From Sinomonas cyclohexanicum (lineage in GTDB: Bacteria > Actinomycetota > Actinomycetes > Actinomycetales > Micrococcaceae): DNA of 64,000 nucleotides. The DNA is taken from NCBI RefSeq assembly GCF_020886775.1, contig NZ_AP024525.1, positions 1,178,001 to 1,242,000 on the forward strand, read 5' to 3'. Below are positions 6,774-64,000 of this stretch, in pieces. The stretch's first letter is position 1. Each line of letters opens with the position of its first letter. Both the position numbers and the translations under genes were made by a program. The notes beneath the pieces were generated by a model, which saw nothing but the letters and a program-made list of their open reading frames with translations, did no database searches and was not told where the DNA came from.

Positions 6774-7150
6774 GGTCTGCGTTCCTCCGGGAGCTGAAGC
6801 TGCGGGTCGTGGTCGCGCTGCAGCGCGACCACGCACGTGAAGCCGGCGAGGTCCTCCCAGCGCGCGGGAATGGGCTCGGCGGGCGTGGCGCCGATGGACG
6901 CGAGCCAGACGACCAAGTTGGCCCTGTCGTCGAAGGTCAGGTGCGTCCCGTCAACGAGGGCACCGGACATCAGGTCGTCCACGTCATCCGGGCGGCAGAT
7001 CACGGCCTCCCACCAGCCGCTCTCGGTCCAACCGCCCATTCGCAGGACGGCCAAACAGAGGTTGGATCCGGTCGGGAGGCCCGAGGCGGCGCCCGCAATC
7101 ATATGGCGGTACATTCGGCGGTCTTGCTCTTCCATGCCGTGGCATCCCAT
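6770..7150 (-). CDS. Hypothetical protein, 121-126 aa
   Basis: A protein of unknown family (start at 7150, or at the ATG at 7135 beginning MEEQDRRMYRHMIAG). It contains Trp-rich stretches (GGWTESGWWEAVICRPDDVDD, WLASIGATPAEPIPARWEDL) and looks cytosolic. Neither start has a clear RBS. Its last codons overlap the first codons of the 78-residue gene by ATGA, so the two are one operon. The position next to the Doc remnant and an ADP-ribosyltransferase-like gene makes a small toxin/immunity or accessory pair thinkable, but this is only context. Confidence 0.55.
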   Translation of the reverse strand: MGCHGMEEQDRRMYRHMIAGAASGLPTGSNLCLAVLRMGGWTESGWWEAVICRPDDVDDLMSGALVDGTHLTFDDRANLVVWLASIGATPAEPIPARWEDLAGFTCVVALQRDHDPQLQLPEERRP

Positions 7151-60729: not shown

Positions 60730-60933
60730 CTAGTTGCGCTGCCAGCTGACGATGTTCTGCCAGGCACCGGCGTTCGCCGTCGAACCGATGGTTGCCGCGT
60801 TGATCGCGAACGCGAGATTCACTCCGACGATCGGTGCAATGTTGATGTTTATCGTCAGAAGCGTATCCCGCTCTGGGAGCAGGAGCGCCGTTTCCGCACG
60901 CAACTCGCTCGGGGTTACAGCATGGGGGACCAT
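60730..60933 (-). CDS. Small peptide A of the M50-protease cluster, 67 aa
   Basis: A 67-residue peptide with the cluster's leader-like block (SELRAETALLLPERDTL) followed by a hydrophobic Asn/Ala/Ile-rich tail (NINIAPIVGVNLAFAINAAT, then IGSTANAGAWQNIVSWQRN). It aligns with peptides B and C at ET..LLP.RDTL and at AN.GA.QNI, but it has diverged most and lacks the NSSTA core. AAGGAG 7 nt before the ATG shows it is a real gene. It is the last gene of the cluster. A precursor of a modified or cleaved peptide is inferred, not known. Confidence 0.7.
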   Translation of the reverse strand: MVPHAVTPSELRAETALLLPERDTLLTININIAPIVGVNLAFAINAATIGSTANAGAWQNIVSWQRN

Positions 60934-60957
60934 GACTCAACTCCTTGGTGTGTCGCA

Positions 60958-60985
60958 CCGGGTGCCCGGCAAGCCGGGCACCCGG
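60958..60985. terminator. Strong hairpin between peptides B and A
   Basis: CCGGGTGCCCGG (60958-60969) pairs exactly with 60974-60985 across CAAG. It sits after the peptide B stop and before the RBS of A, so it may act as a partial terminator or an mRNA-stabilising end. Confidence 0.55.
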
Positions 60986-61002
60986 TCTCTGTTGCGTCAG
61001 AC

Positions 61003-61194
61003 TCAGTGCTGCGAGACGCCGATGTTCTGCATCGCGCCGCTGTTCGCGAAGGCGCCGATGCTCAGGAAGTTGACCGCGGTCGACGAATTGCTCGCGAGAA
61101 CGAGTGCGAGGTTGTCTCCGAAGTGGACGCTGCCCCATCCGAGCGTGTCGCGCGAAGGGAGGAGTTCCACGGTCTCAGCCGTAAGATCCATCAT
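61003..61194 (-). CDS. Small peptide B of the M50-protease cluster, 63 aa
   Basis: A 63-residue peptide: leader-like MMDLTAETVELLPSRDTL, then a tail with ALVLASNSSTAVN and AFANSGAMQNIGVSQH. The tail is nearly the same as in peptide C (ALVLASNSSTAAN, AIANSTAVQNIGVSQH), including the last residues. A full-strength AAGGAGGTG lies 7 nt before the ATG at 61194, suggesting high expression. It follows the M50 protease gene by 55 bp. The conserved leader with a variable junction and a hydrophilic Asn/Ser/Thr tail is what a processed precursor would show. Confidence 0.75.
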   Translation of the reverse strand: MMDLTAETVELLPSRDTLGWGSVHFGDNLALVLASNSSTAVNFLSIGAFANSGAMQNIGVSQH

Positions 61195-61249
61195 GGTGTT
61201 CACCTCCTTCCGGGGTCTCGTAGGTGCATTGCATGGTCTGTGGGCCGCC

Positions 61250-62629
61250 TCAGGCGTGGCCAGTTGGCACCTGCCGGTGGCGGGGGTTACGCCGCGTGTG
61301 GCGTCCGAGCCCGGCACGGTGTCCCCGCTCGGCGGTGAACCGGGCTGAGGCCCAGCGGACAAGTCGTGTGACGAGTTGGGCCAGGATGGCGCAGAGCCCT
61401 ACCACCGGCAGGACGAGGAGGAACAGCCCGAGCGCCGAGAGGAGGGCCTCTACGAGCTGCCCGTTCTGGACAAAGTTCAGAAGGGTCGTCAGATAGAGGG
61501 TGGCGGCGCCCACCGTCTGCTCGATGATGATCGGCAGCGTCAGGACGAGCCACGCCATGACGATGGTCAGGAACGGGATCACGACGAGCACCCAGGCGGT
61601 GACGATCCACCGGGAGTACGGCTTTAGCTCGCTTACCCGGGGGTCCGCTGGGCGGCCCGGGATGAGGCTCGCGATGACCGGCTTGACCCTTGCGAACAGG
61701 TCGGGGACTCCCGCGAGGTCCGCCAGGACGAAGTACCCGTCGAGCCGGACAAACGGCGGGAGCTGCTGCATCATCTGTATCTGCGTGGCGATGATGAGCA
61801 TGACCAGCAGCGGACTGCCGGTGGTGAGGAATCCGACGCCGGCGGTGAGGACCCAGATGAGATGGAAGTACAGGCCCCCGAGGTCGGTTCGGATGCGGCC
61901 TGCGCGGCCGAGGCGGTAGGAGTCCGTGACATTCGTATAGAAGGCCGGGAAGACCAGATACAGGCCCACCCCGATCACGCCTGGATCTGCGCCGCCGTAG
62001 CGGCACGCGGCCGCATGCCCAATCTCGTGGAAGATGGTGCCCGCGAGGAGCAGGGCATACAGCGAGAGCAGCATCGCCGGCGTGACAAGCACGGCCTGCA
62101 GGGCTGAGAAGGCGTCTGCCCTCAGGAAGAGGTAGGTGTCAAGAGCCGCGAGGGCCATCACCGCGGCGATGACGATGGGGGTCGCGAAGAGCGGCCTGAA
62201 GATGTCCGCAAGGAAGTGGACAGCGCGCTTGGGGATCAGCGTTCCCTTGACCGTTAGCGCGAGAAGGGGCGTCGCCGTGGCGAGCTTCGGCGGAGGGGGA
62301 GCGTCATCCCGCGTGAGGAACCCAATCGGGGAGAGCCGCTCGGCCAGGGTGGAGGCGCCTTCGGCGTCCAGTTCCTGCCCGCAGGCCTCTGAGACCCGGC
62401 GGGCGATTGCGGCCGGCTCGCTCGGCTCCGAGGAGCTCTCGAGGACAAGGTAGAGCAGCCGGCTGAGCTGAGCCACCTGGCCGTCGGCCCGGCGCACCAA
62501 GTAGACCGGCTTGGTCAGGCCCGTTCCGGTAGCCTCGCCCAAGAGTTCGACGCCGTCGGCACGCATCCAGCGGACGCTGCGGTCATCGTCGGGGTCATCC
62601 CGGCGGATCGCGGGTTCCTGGAGTGCCAT
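61250..62629 (-). CDS. M50-type membrane metalloprotease with PqqD-like N-terminal domain
   Basis: A 459-residue polytopic membrane protein. Residues ~20-105 (VELLGEATGTGLTKPVYLVR, then YLVLESSSEPSEPAAIARRV) resemble the PqqD-like peptide-binding fold found at the front of peptide-modifying proteins. The zinc site is HEIGH at 201-205 in a membrane helix, with the third ligand probably in RLDGYFVLADL (Asp297 or Asp304). At least six further hydrophobic helices follow, and the C-terminus is Arg/His-rich. It resembles the putative peptide zinc metalloprotease group linked to bacteriocin-like clusters. Peptides B and C lie on either side, so it is the likely processing or export partner. Confidence 0.75.
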   Translation of the reverse strand: MALQEPAIRRDDPDDDRSVRWMRADGVELLGEATGTGLTKPVYLVRRADGQVAQLSRLLYLVLESSSEPSEPAAIARRVSEACGQELDAEGASTLAERLSPIGFLTRDDAPPPPKLATATPLLALTVKGTLIPKRAVHFLADIFRPLFATPIVIAAVMALAALDTYLFLRADAFSALQAVLVTPAMLLSLYALLLAGTIFHEIGHAAACRYGGADPGVIGVGLYLVFPAFYTNVTDSYRLGRAGRIRTDLGGLYFHLIWVLTAGVGFLTTGSPLLVMLIIATQIQMMQQLPPFVRLDGYFVLADLAGVPDLFARVKPVIASLIPGRPADPRVSELKPYSRWIVTAWVLVVIPFLTIVMAWLVLTLPIIIEQTVGAATLYLTTLLNFVQNGQLVEALLSALGLFLLVLPVVGLCAILAQLVTRLVRWASARFTAERGHRAGLGRHTRRNPRHRQVPTGHA

Positions 62630-62681
62630 GGTGTCGAATCCTCTCGGAGGTCAGCGAACGGTGTGCACATCGGGGGGGAAG

Positions 62682-62730
62682 GCTGCGGGGGCCCCTGCAA
62701 GGTTGGGGGCTGCCGAAGGGCCCCCGCAGC
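62682..62730. terminator. Strong hairpin between peptide C and the M50 gene
   Basis: GCTGCGGGGGCCC (62682-62694) pairs exactly with 62718-62730. It lies just after the peptide C stop. A leaky terminator here would yield more peptide C message than protease message. Confidence 0.55.
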
Positions 62731-62754
62731 GCTTGGGTGGGTGCGTCGCCGGGT

Positions 62755-62949
62755 CTAGTGCTGCGAAACGCCGATGTTCTGGACAGCGGTGCTGTTCGCG
62801 ATCGCGAAGACCGAGCCAAGGTTGGCAGCGGTCGAGGAGTTCGAGGCCAGCACGAGGGCGACGTTGCTGCCCCAGTGGAAGCTCCACGCGAGGGTCTCGC
62901 GCGTCGGGAGCAGCTCGATGGTCTCTTCCGAGATGGACAGCTTCGTCAT
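62755..62949 (-). CDS. Small peptide C of the M50-protease cluster, 64 aa
   Basis: A 64-residue peptide: leader-like SISEETIELLPTRETL, then a tail with ALVLASNSSTAAN and AIANSTAVQNIGVSQH. AGGAG lies 8 nt before the ATG at 62949; a GTG at 62958 is a weaker start. It is the first gene of the presumed operon (C, M50 protease, B, A on the minus strand). No Cys is present, so disulfide or thioether chemistry is not indicated. The family is unknown to me. Confidence 0.75.
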   Translation of the reverse strand: MTKLSISEETIELLPTRETLAWSFHWGSNVALVLASNSSTAANLGSVFAIANSTAVQNIGVSQH

Positions 62950-63094
62950 GAGAATCACTCCTGGATTTCTTCCCGGTTTCTGACTCGATTGCTTTCCAAT
63001 CGATGTCCTCAGTCAACGGGGTGGCCAGTTACCAGAGTGTTATCGCCGCGTTATCGCTCTGACGTGGGCAGACTTTGGATGTGCATGAACGGGA

Positions 63095-63137
63095 GAGGCC
63101 CCCGACCACCGTTCCAAAACGGTCGGTCGGGGGCCTC
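63095..63137. terminator. Strong stem-loop after the secreted repeat protein gene
   Basis: GAGGCCCCCGACC (63095-63107) and GGTCGGGGGCCTC (63125-63137) form a 13-bp stem, with an inner 6-bp stem ACCGTT/AACGGT. It lies 25 bp past the stop of the secreted-protein gene on the minus strand and separates that gene from peptide C. Confidence 0.7.
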
Positions 63138-63161
63138 TTGAGCGAGGGAGACGGGCGGGCG

Positions 63162-63926
63162 TCAGCTGCCCGTCTTGACGTCCACGTTGGCCGTGACCTG
63201 TGCGCCGGTGTCCGCGGCGATGACGGCGGCGGCCTGCCGCACGGCCTCGTCCGTTGATGTGCGGGCCTTCGCCGCCTTCAGGCTGGGACCTGCCGGCGCC
63301 TTCGCGTTCGCGTCGAGACTCGCCGCGAGGGCCTCCTCGATGTGCGACACGACGCTGCGCGCGGTCGACGACAGCTCGCGCTGCTTCACACCCACGAGGA
63401 TGAACTGGATGGCCGCGCCGTTGGTCACGCACCCCGTGCAGCCCACGTTGAGCGCAGTCGAGCTGTTGTTGGCGACGATTTTACGGGCATCCGCCGTCGC
63501 GATGACTTGGATGGAGATGGCGGTCGACGTCGCGTTGTTGCCGGTGGTGCGCGCGTTCACCACGTTGTCGGCGCGGAGCGTCGACACGCCCGGAGAGGTG
63601 AGGACCTGGAGGGTCGTGGCACTGCCCGAGCACCCTTCGCAGTTGTTCTGGACCGTGGCCGACGCCGAGGCTGGGCCGCCGTTGGGCCGCAGGGGCCCCC
63701 AGACCTTGTCCGTGTCGACGGCCTTGGGGTGCCGAGCGTTCGGGATCGCGCGGGACGAGGCATGCATGTACTGGCCCCAGCCATGGCCGTCGCCGCGATC
63801 GGAATCGGCCGACGCCGGCGCGATCTGCGCGGCGAGCAGGCCTGCGGCGACGAGGCCTATGGCCGAGGCGCGGAGGAGGGGGGTGCGGGTAGGGCGGGGA
63901 CTGCGGTGGATGGCATGCTGCGTCAC
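63162..63926 (-). CDS. Secreted Asn/Ser/Thr/Ala-repeat protein with two CxxC motifs
   Basis: A 254-residue protein. The signal peptide ends near IAPASA (residues ~39-40). The central part has three related segments of about 30 residues, each closing with an Ala/Ser..[LI]Q[VF][LI] strand: NNCEGCSGSATTLQVL, NNATSTAISIQVI and NNSSTALNVGCTGCVTNGAA-IQFIL. The third matches the tail of peptides B and C (ASNSSTA.N...AN..A.QNI). Two CxxC pairs (CEGC, CTGC) may bond or bind metal. The C-terminal ~85 residues are helical. The GTG start has AGAAGGAG 5 nt upstream. A surface fibre or matrix role is inferred from the repeats. Confidence 0.65.
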   Translation of the reverse strand: MTQHAIHRSPRPTRTPLLRASAIGLVAAGLLAAQIAPASADSDRGDGHGWGQYMHASSRAIPNARHPKAVDTDKVWGPLRPNGGPASASATVQNNCEGCSGSATTLQVLTSPGVSTLRADNVVNARTTGNNATSTAISIQVIATADARKIVANNSSTALNVGCTGCVTNGAAIQFILVGVKQRELSSTARSVVSHIEEALAASLDANAKAPAGPSLKAAKARTSTDEAVRQAAAVIAADTGAQVTANVDVKTGS

Positions 63927-64000
63927 TGGGTCTCCTTCTGGGGCTGGCGTTGCCTCCCCGCCGCGTGGACGACGGCTCGGGCTCCTGCATTCTCGAGCGG

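Follow-up and report, generated by a model that had tools for sequence, protein, structure and literature searches.

Leader-Bearing Peptides, an M50 Protease with a Predicted RRE-Like Domain and an Exported Repeat Protein in Sinomonas cyclohexanicum: A Possible Pathway to Extracellular Beta-Ladder Peptides

The Gene Set

The window, i.e., the whole stretch of 64,000 nucleotides analyzed here (bases 1178001–1242000 of the 4413566-base, single-contig genome of Sinomonas cyclohexanicum), contains five open reading frames (ORFs) on the minus strand that encode three small peptides sharing a leader, a membrane protein of the M50/site-2-protease kind and an exported repeat protein (Table 1). In the order of transcription, the gene of a SARP/BTAD regulator, which overlaps that of the exported protein by 4 nt, is followed by the exported repeat protein, peptide A, the M50 protease, peptide B and peptide C; together they presumably form a single operon. 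The grouping of the five ORFs on one strand and the leader common to the peptides had been pointed out in an original prediction made by a model from the letters of the DNA. The resemblance goes far beyond chance: a profile built from 31 peptides has only four matches over the 4.4 Mb of the genome, three being the peptides themselves (E 1.4e-22 to 5.9e-27) and the fourth, the sole one that is not a peptide, being the repeat of the exported protein (E 2.9e-4).

The ORF of peptide A reaches a GTG at 62958 (67 aa), the ATG three codons in, preceded by AGGAG, being the better start. Peptides A and B end in QNIGVSQH and peptide C in QNIVSWQRN; the prediction had likewise seen the first ending on two peptides, which it lettered C and B. 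The set is undescribed and part of a large family without a name in Pfam: the five window proteins have no Pfam match at E up to 1, and among NCBIfam models only the protease is matched, as a distant kin of the daptide and epipeptide proteases, apart from one match at chance level. In the open-access literature nothing was found for the leader or repeat strings, and none of the matches listed in searches by subject was recognized as this gene set.

Table 1. Features of the gene set and of related loci; coordinates are those of the window unless a locus is named.
Feature	Coordinates	Strand	Remarks
SARP/BTAD regulator gene, 3′ end	63923..64000	-	runs past the window to 64678 (L004:5923-6678); PF03704 E 3.4e-16
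Exported repeat protein	63162..63926	-	254 aa; N-terminus signal-peptide-like (by eye); three repeats of the form N.A.A...A.x.Q, CxxC present in two; C-terminal part helical
Perfect 14-bp inverted repeat, exported gene/peptide A gap	63094..63138	-	z -3.7 for the intergenic region
Peptide A, type 1	62755..62949	-	64 aa from ATG; leader ETIELLPTRETL, then neutral Asn/Ser/Ala-rich core
Strong RNA hairpin, peptide A/protease gap	62682..62732	-	z -3.3 for the intergenic region
M50/site-2-protease-like membrane protein	61250..62629	-	459 aa
Predicted RRE/PqqD-like domain of protease	62306..62572	-	residues ~20-108; AlphaFold model and Foldseek
HEIGH zinc motif of protease	62015..62029	-	H201, E202, H205 invariant in 48 sequences
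RLDGY motif of protease, candidate third zinc ligand D297	61733..61747	-	D297 invariant in 48 sequences
Peptide B, type 1	61003..61194	-	63 aa
Perfect 14-bp inverted repeat, peptide B/C gap	60957..60986	-	z -3.5 for the intergenic region
Peptide C, type 2	60730..60933	-	67 aa
ATPase-ended proteases	L053:7929-10229, L048:7950-10307, L046:7932-10466 and others		unusual pairing with a membrane protease

Distribution of the Protease and Its Peptides

A scan of named genomes yielded 324 loci with relatives of the protease, the best 80 of which were kept and, together with the window locus (L004), make up the 81 loci to which the counts below refer. The closest named relative is that of Sinomonas sp. 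R1AF57, and the hosts comprise Sinomonas, Arthrobacter and its kin, Nocardioides, Intrasporangium, Georgenia, Nakamurella, Saccharopolyspora, Frankia and Mycolicibacterium as well as metagenome-assembled genomes (MAGs) labeled Chloroflexi, Acidimicrobiia and Thermoleophilaceae; of 296 genomes sampled within the phylum, 23 contain the protease (E 1e-30 or better).

A partner gene of the leader type occurs in all 81 loci, in the form of peptides in 78 and of variant leader proteins in L103, L106 and L107. The census counts 185 peptides (82 of type 1, 57 of type 2, 45 of type 3 and one other), 181 of which are no further than 1.3 kb from the protease match, more distant ones being found in L049 and L066, and 178 on the strand of the protease, the opposite ones belonging to L059, L108 and L049. 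Since the census profiles were built from the peptides of these same loci, the independent test is the search of whole genomes. With profile A4 (types 1 and 2) peptides were found in 13 of 98 genomes, the very 13 in which identity to the window protease reaches 48% or more, and for 51 of the 53 peptides so detected the distance to such a gene is no greater than 1.3 kb; the co-occurrence in relatives that had been set beforehand as a test of the prediction was thus borne out. Two orphan peptides with the same leader (G006:C34:35477-35665 and G010:C23:297738-297917) belong to genomes that do possess a protease gene, which is, however, located on a different contig.

The peptides of types 1 and 2 go together, a regularity missed by the original prediction: each of the 57 loci with a type-2 peptide has exactly one, accompanied by one to four peptides of type 1. 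Only type 1 is seen in L075, L078 and L094, the first of these being partly masked, including the leader of its peptide, and type-3 peptides accompany more distant proteases. In a sister clade of the protease the peptides give way to a protein of ~210 residues in which a related leader is followed by tandem core units; this holds for L103, L107 and eight of the nine fused-protease loci found in the whole genomes (in L033 only the repeat end of the protein is seen), the leader profile reaching E 1.6e-7 in L020 and the copies of the core unit E values down to 1.2e-10. The related leader on the multi-repeat protein is recognized at E 1.7e-4 in L107 and weakly (E 0.011–0.014) in L103. The type of substrate tracks the protease tree, four changes sufficing for four groups as compared to a mean of 27.9 after shuffling (quick tree, 90 rows). 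Furthermore, the leader is kept with other Asn/Gly/Ser-rich cores in L110, L078 and L094. A separate observation concerns L106, a Solirubrobacterales MAG, in which the frame from 1063 has the conserved leader (E 1.7e-5) before a Cys/Pro-rich core, so that the leader seems portable between unrelated cores.

The peptides look to be under purifying selection, judging from codon comparisons in which pN is smaller than pS in 247 of 255 type-1 and in all 132 type-2 pairs, these pairs not being independent of each other, with median dN/dS values of ~0.43 and ~0.20, respectively.

Composition and Periodicity of the Cores

Core statistics refer to 182 of the 185 peptides (among them 81 of type 1, 56 of type 2 and 44 of type 3), the remaining three being peptides that could not be split. 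The mean length of the cores is 41–42 residues in all three types, their mean net charge is -0.7, -0.6 and -2.3 (types 1, 2 and 3), Lys and Arg being nearly absent, and Asn, Gln, Ser and Thr make up 29–38% of their residues. The type-2 peptides are hydrophobic, with a median maximum KD19 of 1.67 over the last 72 residues.

The cores show a periodicity of two residues. In type 1 the columns N.A.[VI].A.N.S.A.N and, past an arc, A.S.A.Q.[IV].V.Q are mostly invariant, with variable residues in between; for type 2, a few of the inner ladder columns are looser (0.48–0.58). The conservation of alternate positions yields permutation p values of 2e-5, 1.4e-4 and 4e-5 for types 1, 2 and 3, as opposed to 0.20, 0.07 and 0.52 for the leaders used as control; the core segments having been picked after inspection of the columns, these p values are indicative.

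A similar pattern is found in the exported protein, whose family displays, as most common residues, N121.A123.A125...A136.S138.Q140 and N154.A156.A158.N160...C163..C166...A172.Q174. The motif common to peptides and exported protein, noticed in the original prediction, is detected not only by the peptide profile in the genome but also by comparison of the two profiles (hhalign probability 65.7, E 5.8e-5).

The Protease

The window protease combines an HExxH motif with a distal LDG Asp within a protein of membrane helices, the hallmarks of the M50/site-2-protease group. In an alignment of 48 relatives G298 is invariant along with the residues listed in Table 1, among which D297 is a candidate for the third zinc ligand, a role that the corresponding residue has in other M50 proteases. 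The daptide_HExxH model (NCBIfam NF041824) matches the protein with 106.6–106.8 bits (E 1.5e-30; cut-off 300 bits) and the epipeptide protease model (NF058609) with 51.9 bits (E 8.1e-14; cut-off 225), so that the kinship with daptide-type M50 proteases suggested at the outset is supported, albeit at scores far below the cut-off. The window protease is not among the matches of Peptidase_M50 (PF02163) in the genome, and its relative in L020 scores 15.2 bits against a cut-off of 27.2; alignment A1 has no sequence relative in the PDB up to E 1.

In the AlphaFold model (pLDDT 88.9, pTM 0.81) residues 20–108 form strands followed by helices, after which come long helices. The top PDB match in Foldseek is TbiB1 bound to a leader peptide (probability 0.99, target TM 0.65); PqqD follows at rank 17 (probability 0.63, target TM 0.60), with unrelated proteins in between, such as GdmN (probability up to 0.77), and the E values are weak (0.23–1.6). 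From these two matches, the N-terminal part would probably have the PqqD/RRE-like fold (RRE, RiPP recognition element; RiPP, ribosomally synthesized and post-translationally modified peptide) that the original prediction ascribed to it; the reading is thus probably right as to fold, and the binding of the leader would be its expected function.

At the C-terminus, a MinD/ParA-like ATPase domain is recognized by motif in 39 of the 81 loci; of the three ATPase-fused proteases compared with Pfam, those of L053 and L046 are over the cut-off and that of L048 is below it. The L053 protein has a single weak match in PADLOC (E 0.0018). L032 and L034 hold other, more distant HExGH proteases of 555–586 aa with a different C-terminal part.

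The Exported Repeat Protein

The AlphaFold model of the exported protein (pLDDT 86.0) consists of eight strands, mostly of 11–14 residues, two helices and a last strand. The peptides and the exported protein have no convincing sequence relatives in the PDB, the best E values being 0.46 and 0.042, respectively; the Foldseek match of the exported protein to FapC (rank 5, probability 0.01) is meaningless.

Of 58 genomes, 18 have the exported domain, and these are precisely the ones in which identity to the window protease amounts to 41% or more; three of the 40 genomes without it (G019, G035 and G080) hold only distant M50 proteins (27–33% identity). In five genomes (G008, G013, G022, G075 and G081) the domain is found solely at the C-terminus of the protease, where an extra hydrophobic stretch, seen by eye, precedes it, so that it would sit outside the membrane. 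Within the 81 loci, the exported protein is a separate gene in 53, L097 and L104 being counted among these, and is fused to the protease in two (L103 and L107).

Gene Neighborhood

The neighbors of the set were compared by clustering the ORFs of the 81 loci and by their distance from the protease match. A SARP gene is found in 55 loci, always within 3 kb and always with type-1/2 peptides, never with type 3, and is on the same strand in 17. In the window locus, the SARP gene is preceded, beyond the end of the window, by a small conserved gene (L004 ~6888-7112, minus strand, ~80 aa, VLRVW...VRSWL), which is matched in L036 (tblastn E 1.8e-27), recurs in 20 loci beyond the window's own, in 11 of them on the same strand, and whose L049 relative has no Pfam match. 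The original prediction had proposed to look for further enzymes past position 64000; what is found there on the same strand is the SARP regulator and this small gene, followed by genes of the opposite strand. Downstream, a convergent gene read from its sequence as purH flanks the set; the purH cluster is found in 11 loci and, like the FtsX-type permease, ABC ATPase, response-regulator and histidine-kinase clusters, is confined to certain lineages or more remote from the protease. A response-regulator cluster is present in eight loci (within 3 kb in four) and a histidine-kinase cluster in five (within 3 kb in three).

Seven type-3 loci have a gene of lipoprotein-like appearance (by eye) downstream on the protease strand, within 3 kb in six (L100:6237-7004, L059:10312-11115, L104:3019-3864 and others); its L100 copy has no Pfam match.

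No modification enzyme was recognized among the neighbor clusters present in at least eight loci, these having been inspected by eye with Pfam searches for eight neighbors only. In the window genome, the nearest radical-SAM match is ~400 kb from the set and the nearest ABC ATPase match ~11 kb upstream, and the iron-containing alcohol dehydrogenase (Fe-ADH, PF00465) has no match near the set, its genome matches being at 3660505 and, below the cut-off, at 2255532.

The three intergenic hairpins of the window could possibly set the ratio of peptide to protease. Values of z below -2 occur downstream of 49 of 82 type-1 and 32 of 57 type-2 peptides, counts that lack a control gene set and are hence not used as evidence.

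Comparison with Known Systems

The set can be compared with four known systems. MpaP removes daptide leaders in an RRE-dependent manner (PMC10036551), and the window protease resembles this enzyme (NF041824) in having an N-terminal RRE-like domain, predicted in the window protein, joined to an intramembrane site-2-protease core (PMC10036551). Daptide clusters, like the present set, have several small precursors and an ELE-type leader motif, ELExMEAP in daptides (PMC10036551). The set differs from them in that the protease scores far below the 300-bit cut-off, that Fe-ADH is not near, that the C-terminal Thr, invariant in daptide precursors, is not conserved (0 of 81 type-1, 2 of 56 type-2 and 8 of 44 type-3 cores; the window peptides A, B and C end in His, His and Asn) and that it has neutral Asn-rich cores, an exported repeat partner and a SARP gene. 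Genes for the Dmp-forming oxidative decarboxylase, the aminotransferase and the methyltransferase of daptides were not recognized by eye among the neighbors, the latter two having been looked for without a profile search. On the grounds of the missing Fe-ADH, the missing C-terminal Thr and the bit score, assignment to the daptide class of RiPPs was rejected.

In the epipeptide class the modifying enzyme is a radical-SAM epimerase. The window protease is weakly homologous to the M50 protease EpeP/YydH of this class (NF058609) and differs from it in that it remains below the model's cut-off and has no radical-SAM gene near its set; given the lack of such a gene nearby in the window genome, the set was not classed as a radical-SAM-modified RiPP. 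Both the cleavage of the peptide and its export are ascribed to EpeP, although some product persists upon deletion (PMC10885120).

Membership in the curli family was rejected, there being no PF07012 match and no convincing PDB sequence relative, and the proposed leader/RRE/M50 route of the set is unlike the CsgG route taken by curli. In pattern alone, the cores nonetheless recall CsgA/CsgB: they would form repeats of strand, arc and strand whose alternate, inward positions hold Asn, Gln and small hydrophobic residues, and there would be major and minor subunits (PMC10192328). Curlin repeats follow an N.x.x.Q pattern in which every other residue points inward (PMC10192328). When the cores are set against this ladder, the alternation is strong, but the first segment ends in Asn and the second starts with Ala; their ladder segments are 13–15 residues long vs 7 in curli, and most peptides contain one repeat. 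We would read the resemblance to curlin as a likeness in working rather than as membership.

In TMcin, as in the scheme proposed below, an enzyme of the site-2-protease clan, TmcP, removes the leader of a RiPP, TmcA, in the membrane (PMC13252029). TmcP, unlike the window protease, belongs to PF11667, with no PqqD named in its description, and the TMcin precursor is a disulfide-containing peptide with a transmembrane helix (PMC13252029); the TMcin cluster, unlike the window set, includes an ABC transporter and an escort protein (PMC13252029).

Assignment to a defense system was abandoned since PADLOC gave no match at E up to 0.01 for four window proteins (peptide B not included). Two-peptide bacteriocins of class IIb are cationic and carry GxxxG motifs; neither the net charge of the cores nor their content of GxxxG (4 of 81 type-1 and 0 of 56 type-2 cores) fits this class, which was likewise rejected.

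Proposed Mechanism and Its Alternatives

The computed features, namely the gene set and its conservation, the co-distribution of its members, the RRE-like and M50 features of the protease, the shared repeat, the two-residue periodicity and the single- and multi-repeat substrates, are compatible with an RRE-guided, intramembrane-protease pathway that makes unmodified, extracellular beta-ladder (amyloid-like) peptides, a reading to which we incline, if only slightly beyond an even chance. According to this scheme, the N-terminal RRE of the protease would bind the leader E..xELLPxRETL of the peptides, and its site-2-protease core would cut near the end of the leader and release a core of ~40 residues outside the membrane. 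In-register Asn/Gln/Ala ladders would then allow a single type-2 peptide and at least one type-1 peptide to stack on each other and on the exported repeat protein, which would act as nucleator or anchor. The removal of the leader by the window protease is very likely; the stacking of the cores outside the cell is only somewhat favored. That the protease itself might export the cores is a guess for which EpeP offers a precedent, just as MpaP does for the removal of the leader; a different exporter is conceivable in view of the ABC-type genes found close to some of the relatives. An amyloid-like fiber had already been envisaged in the original prediction; the alternating Asn/Gln/Ala ladder and the multi-repeat substrates of the sister clade lend some weight to such a hypothetical fiber.

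Several observations weigh against the pathway outlined above. A search of the genome with Curlin_rpt (PF07012) gave nothing up to E 10, the E. coli control being positive; the Foldseek search of the PDB returned no usable relative of the exported protein, and no solved site-2-protease structure is among the best 50 of the 112 Foldseek matches of the protease. The hydrophobicity of type-1 peptides is mild (median maximum KD19 1.01), which makes them a poor fit to an intramembrane substrate. The substrates of L078, L094, L106 and L110 do not follow the ladder, and the exported gene was not detected in 26 of the 81 loci within the DNA examined, 12 of these being of the ATPase type and one being L075, which has no called protease ORF. 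Finally, ABC ATPase ORFs occur in 22 of the 81 loci, at a median distance of 4.4 kb, three of them within 3 kb and three on the same strand, and an FtsX-type permease is found in 10 loci, within 3 kb on the opposite strand.

The same ABC and FtsX genes would suit a secreted antimicrobial of two components, epipeptide- or bacteriocin-like, in which types 1 and 2 jointly target competitor membranes and the exported protein provides immunity or serves as a receptor. This explanation, which we regard as unlikely, could also account for the constant pairing of one type-2 with one to four type-1 peptides, for the proximity of SARP genes to type-1/2 loci, for the kinship of the protease with the daptide and epipeptide enzymes and for the hydrophobicity of type 2; however, the cores are nearly devoid of Lys and Arg and have a negative mean net charge, ABC-type genes have no common position in the loci, the nearest ABC ATPase match of the window genome being as far off as stated above, and the exported protein and the multi-repeat substrates contain the core unit too. 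A sensory role, with protease-released peptides being perceived at the surface via the exported domain and the output being provided by the SARP regulator, by a two-component system or by the MinD-like ATPase domain, appears even less probable. The fusion of this ATPase to the protease, the overlap of the SARP gene with the exported gene and the response-regulator and histidine-kinase clusters would be in keeping with such a role, but the regulators vary by clade and occupy no common place, and as many as four similar type-1 peptides, together with tandem-repeat substrates, better suit a structural one.

The alternation of constrained residues also evokes pores of the polytheonamide kind, Asn-rich and alternating between D and L residues, in which every second residue would be constrained as well. 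The cores might accordingly belong to a modified RiPP whose tailoring enzymes are encoded elsewhere, and the RRE and leader logic, a hallmark of RiPPs, agrees with this possibility, as does the periodicity. Nevertheless, it is the least probable of the alternatives and quite improbable in itself, because the closest radical-SAM match of the window genome is as far away as stated above, because inspection by eye of the clusters of at least eight loci revealed no modification enzyme (YcaO, LanC and the like not having been searched for) and because the periodic unit is also present in the exported protein, which has no leader. The modified products that the original prediction considered as one possibility found no support.

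Outlook

Returning to the pathway of unmodified beta-ladder peptides, its most far-reaching form, to which we would assign slightly less than an even chance, is that of a new route of fiber assembly in which recognition of the leader by the RRE and intramembrane release are followed by polymerization of one minor type-2 and several major type-1 subunits on an exported nucleator built of the same unit, the system having diverged, across Actinomycetota and Chloroflexi-labeled MAGs, into proteases that carry a nucleator domain or a MinD/ParA-like ATPase. The protease is of a known kind; what would be new is the use of RRE and leader logic for an unmodified, repeat-built extracellular assembly.

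If this were true, the processing of RiPP leaders by RREs and the functional amyloids, two fields kept apart so far, would become joined, Gram-positive bacteria would be endowed with a route of fiber export that maybe dispenses with a dedicated transporter, and a function would be given to a protease family whose member in the window has no Pfam match. The rules of the system are simple, comprising one leader, one protease, two types of peptide and one exported partner, and the set of leader, RRE and protease could become a tool for releasing chosen peptides at the membrane.

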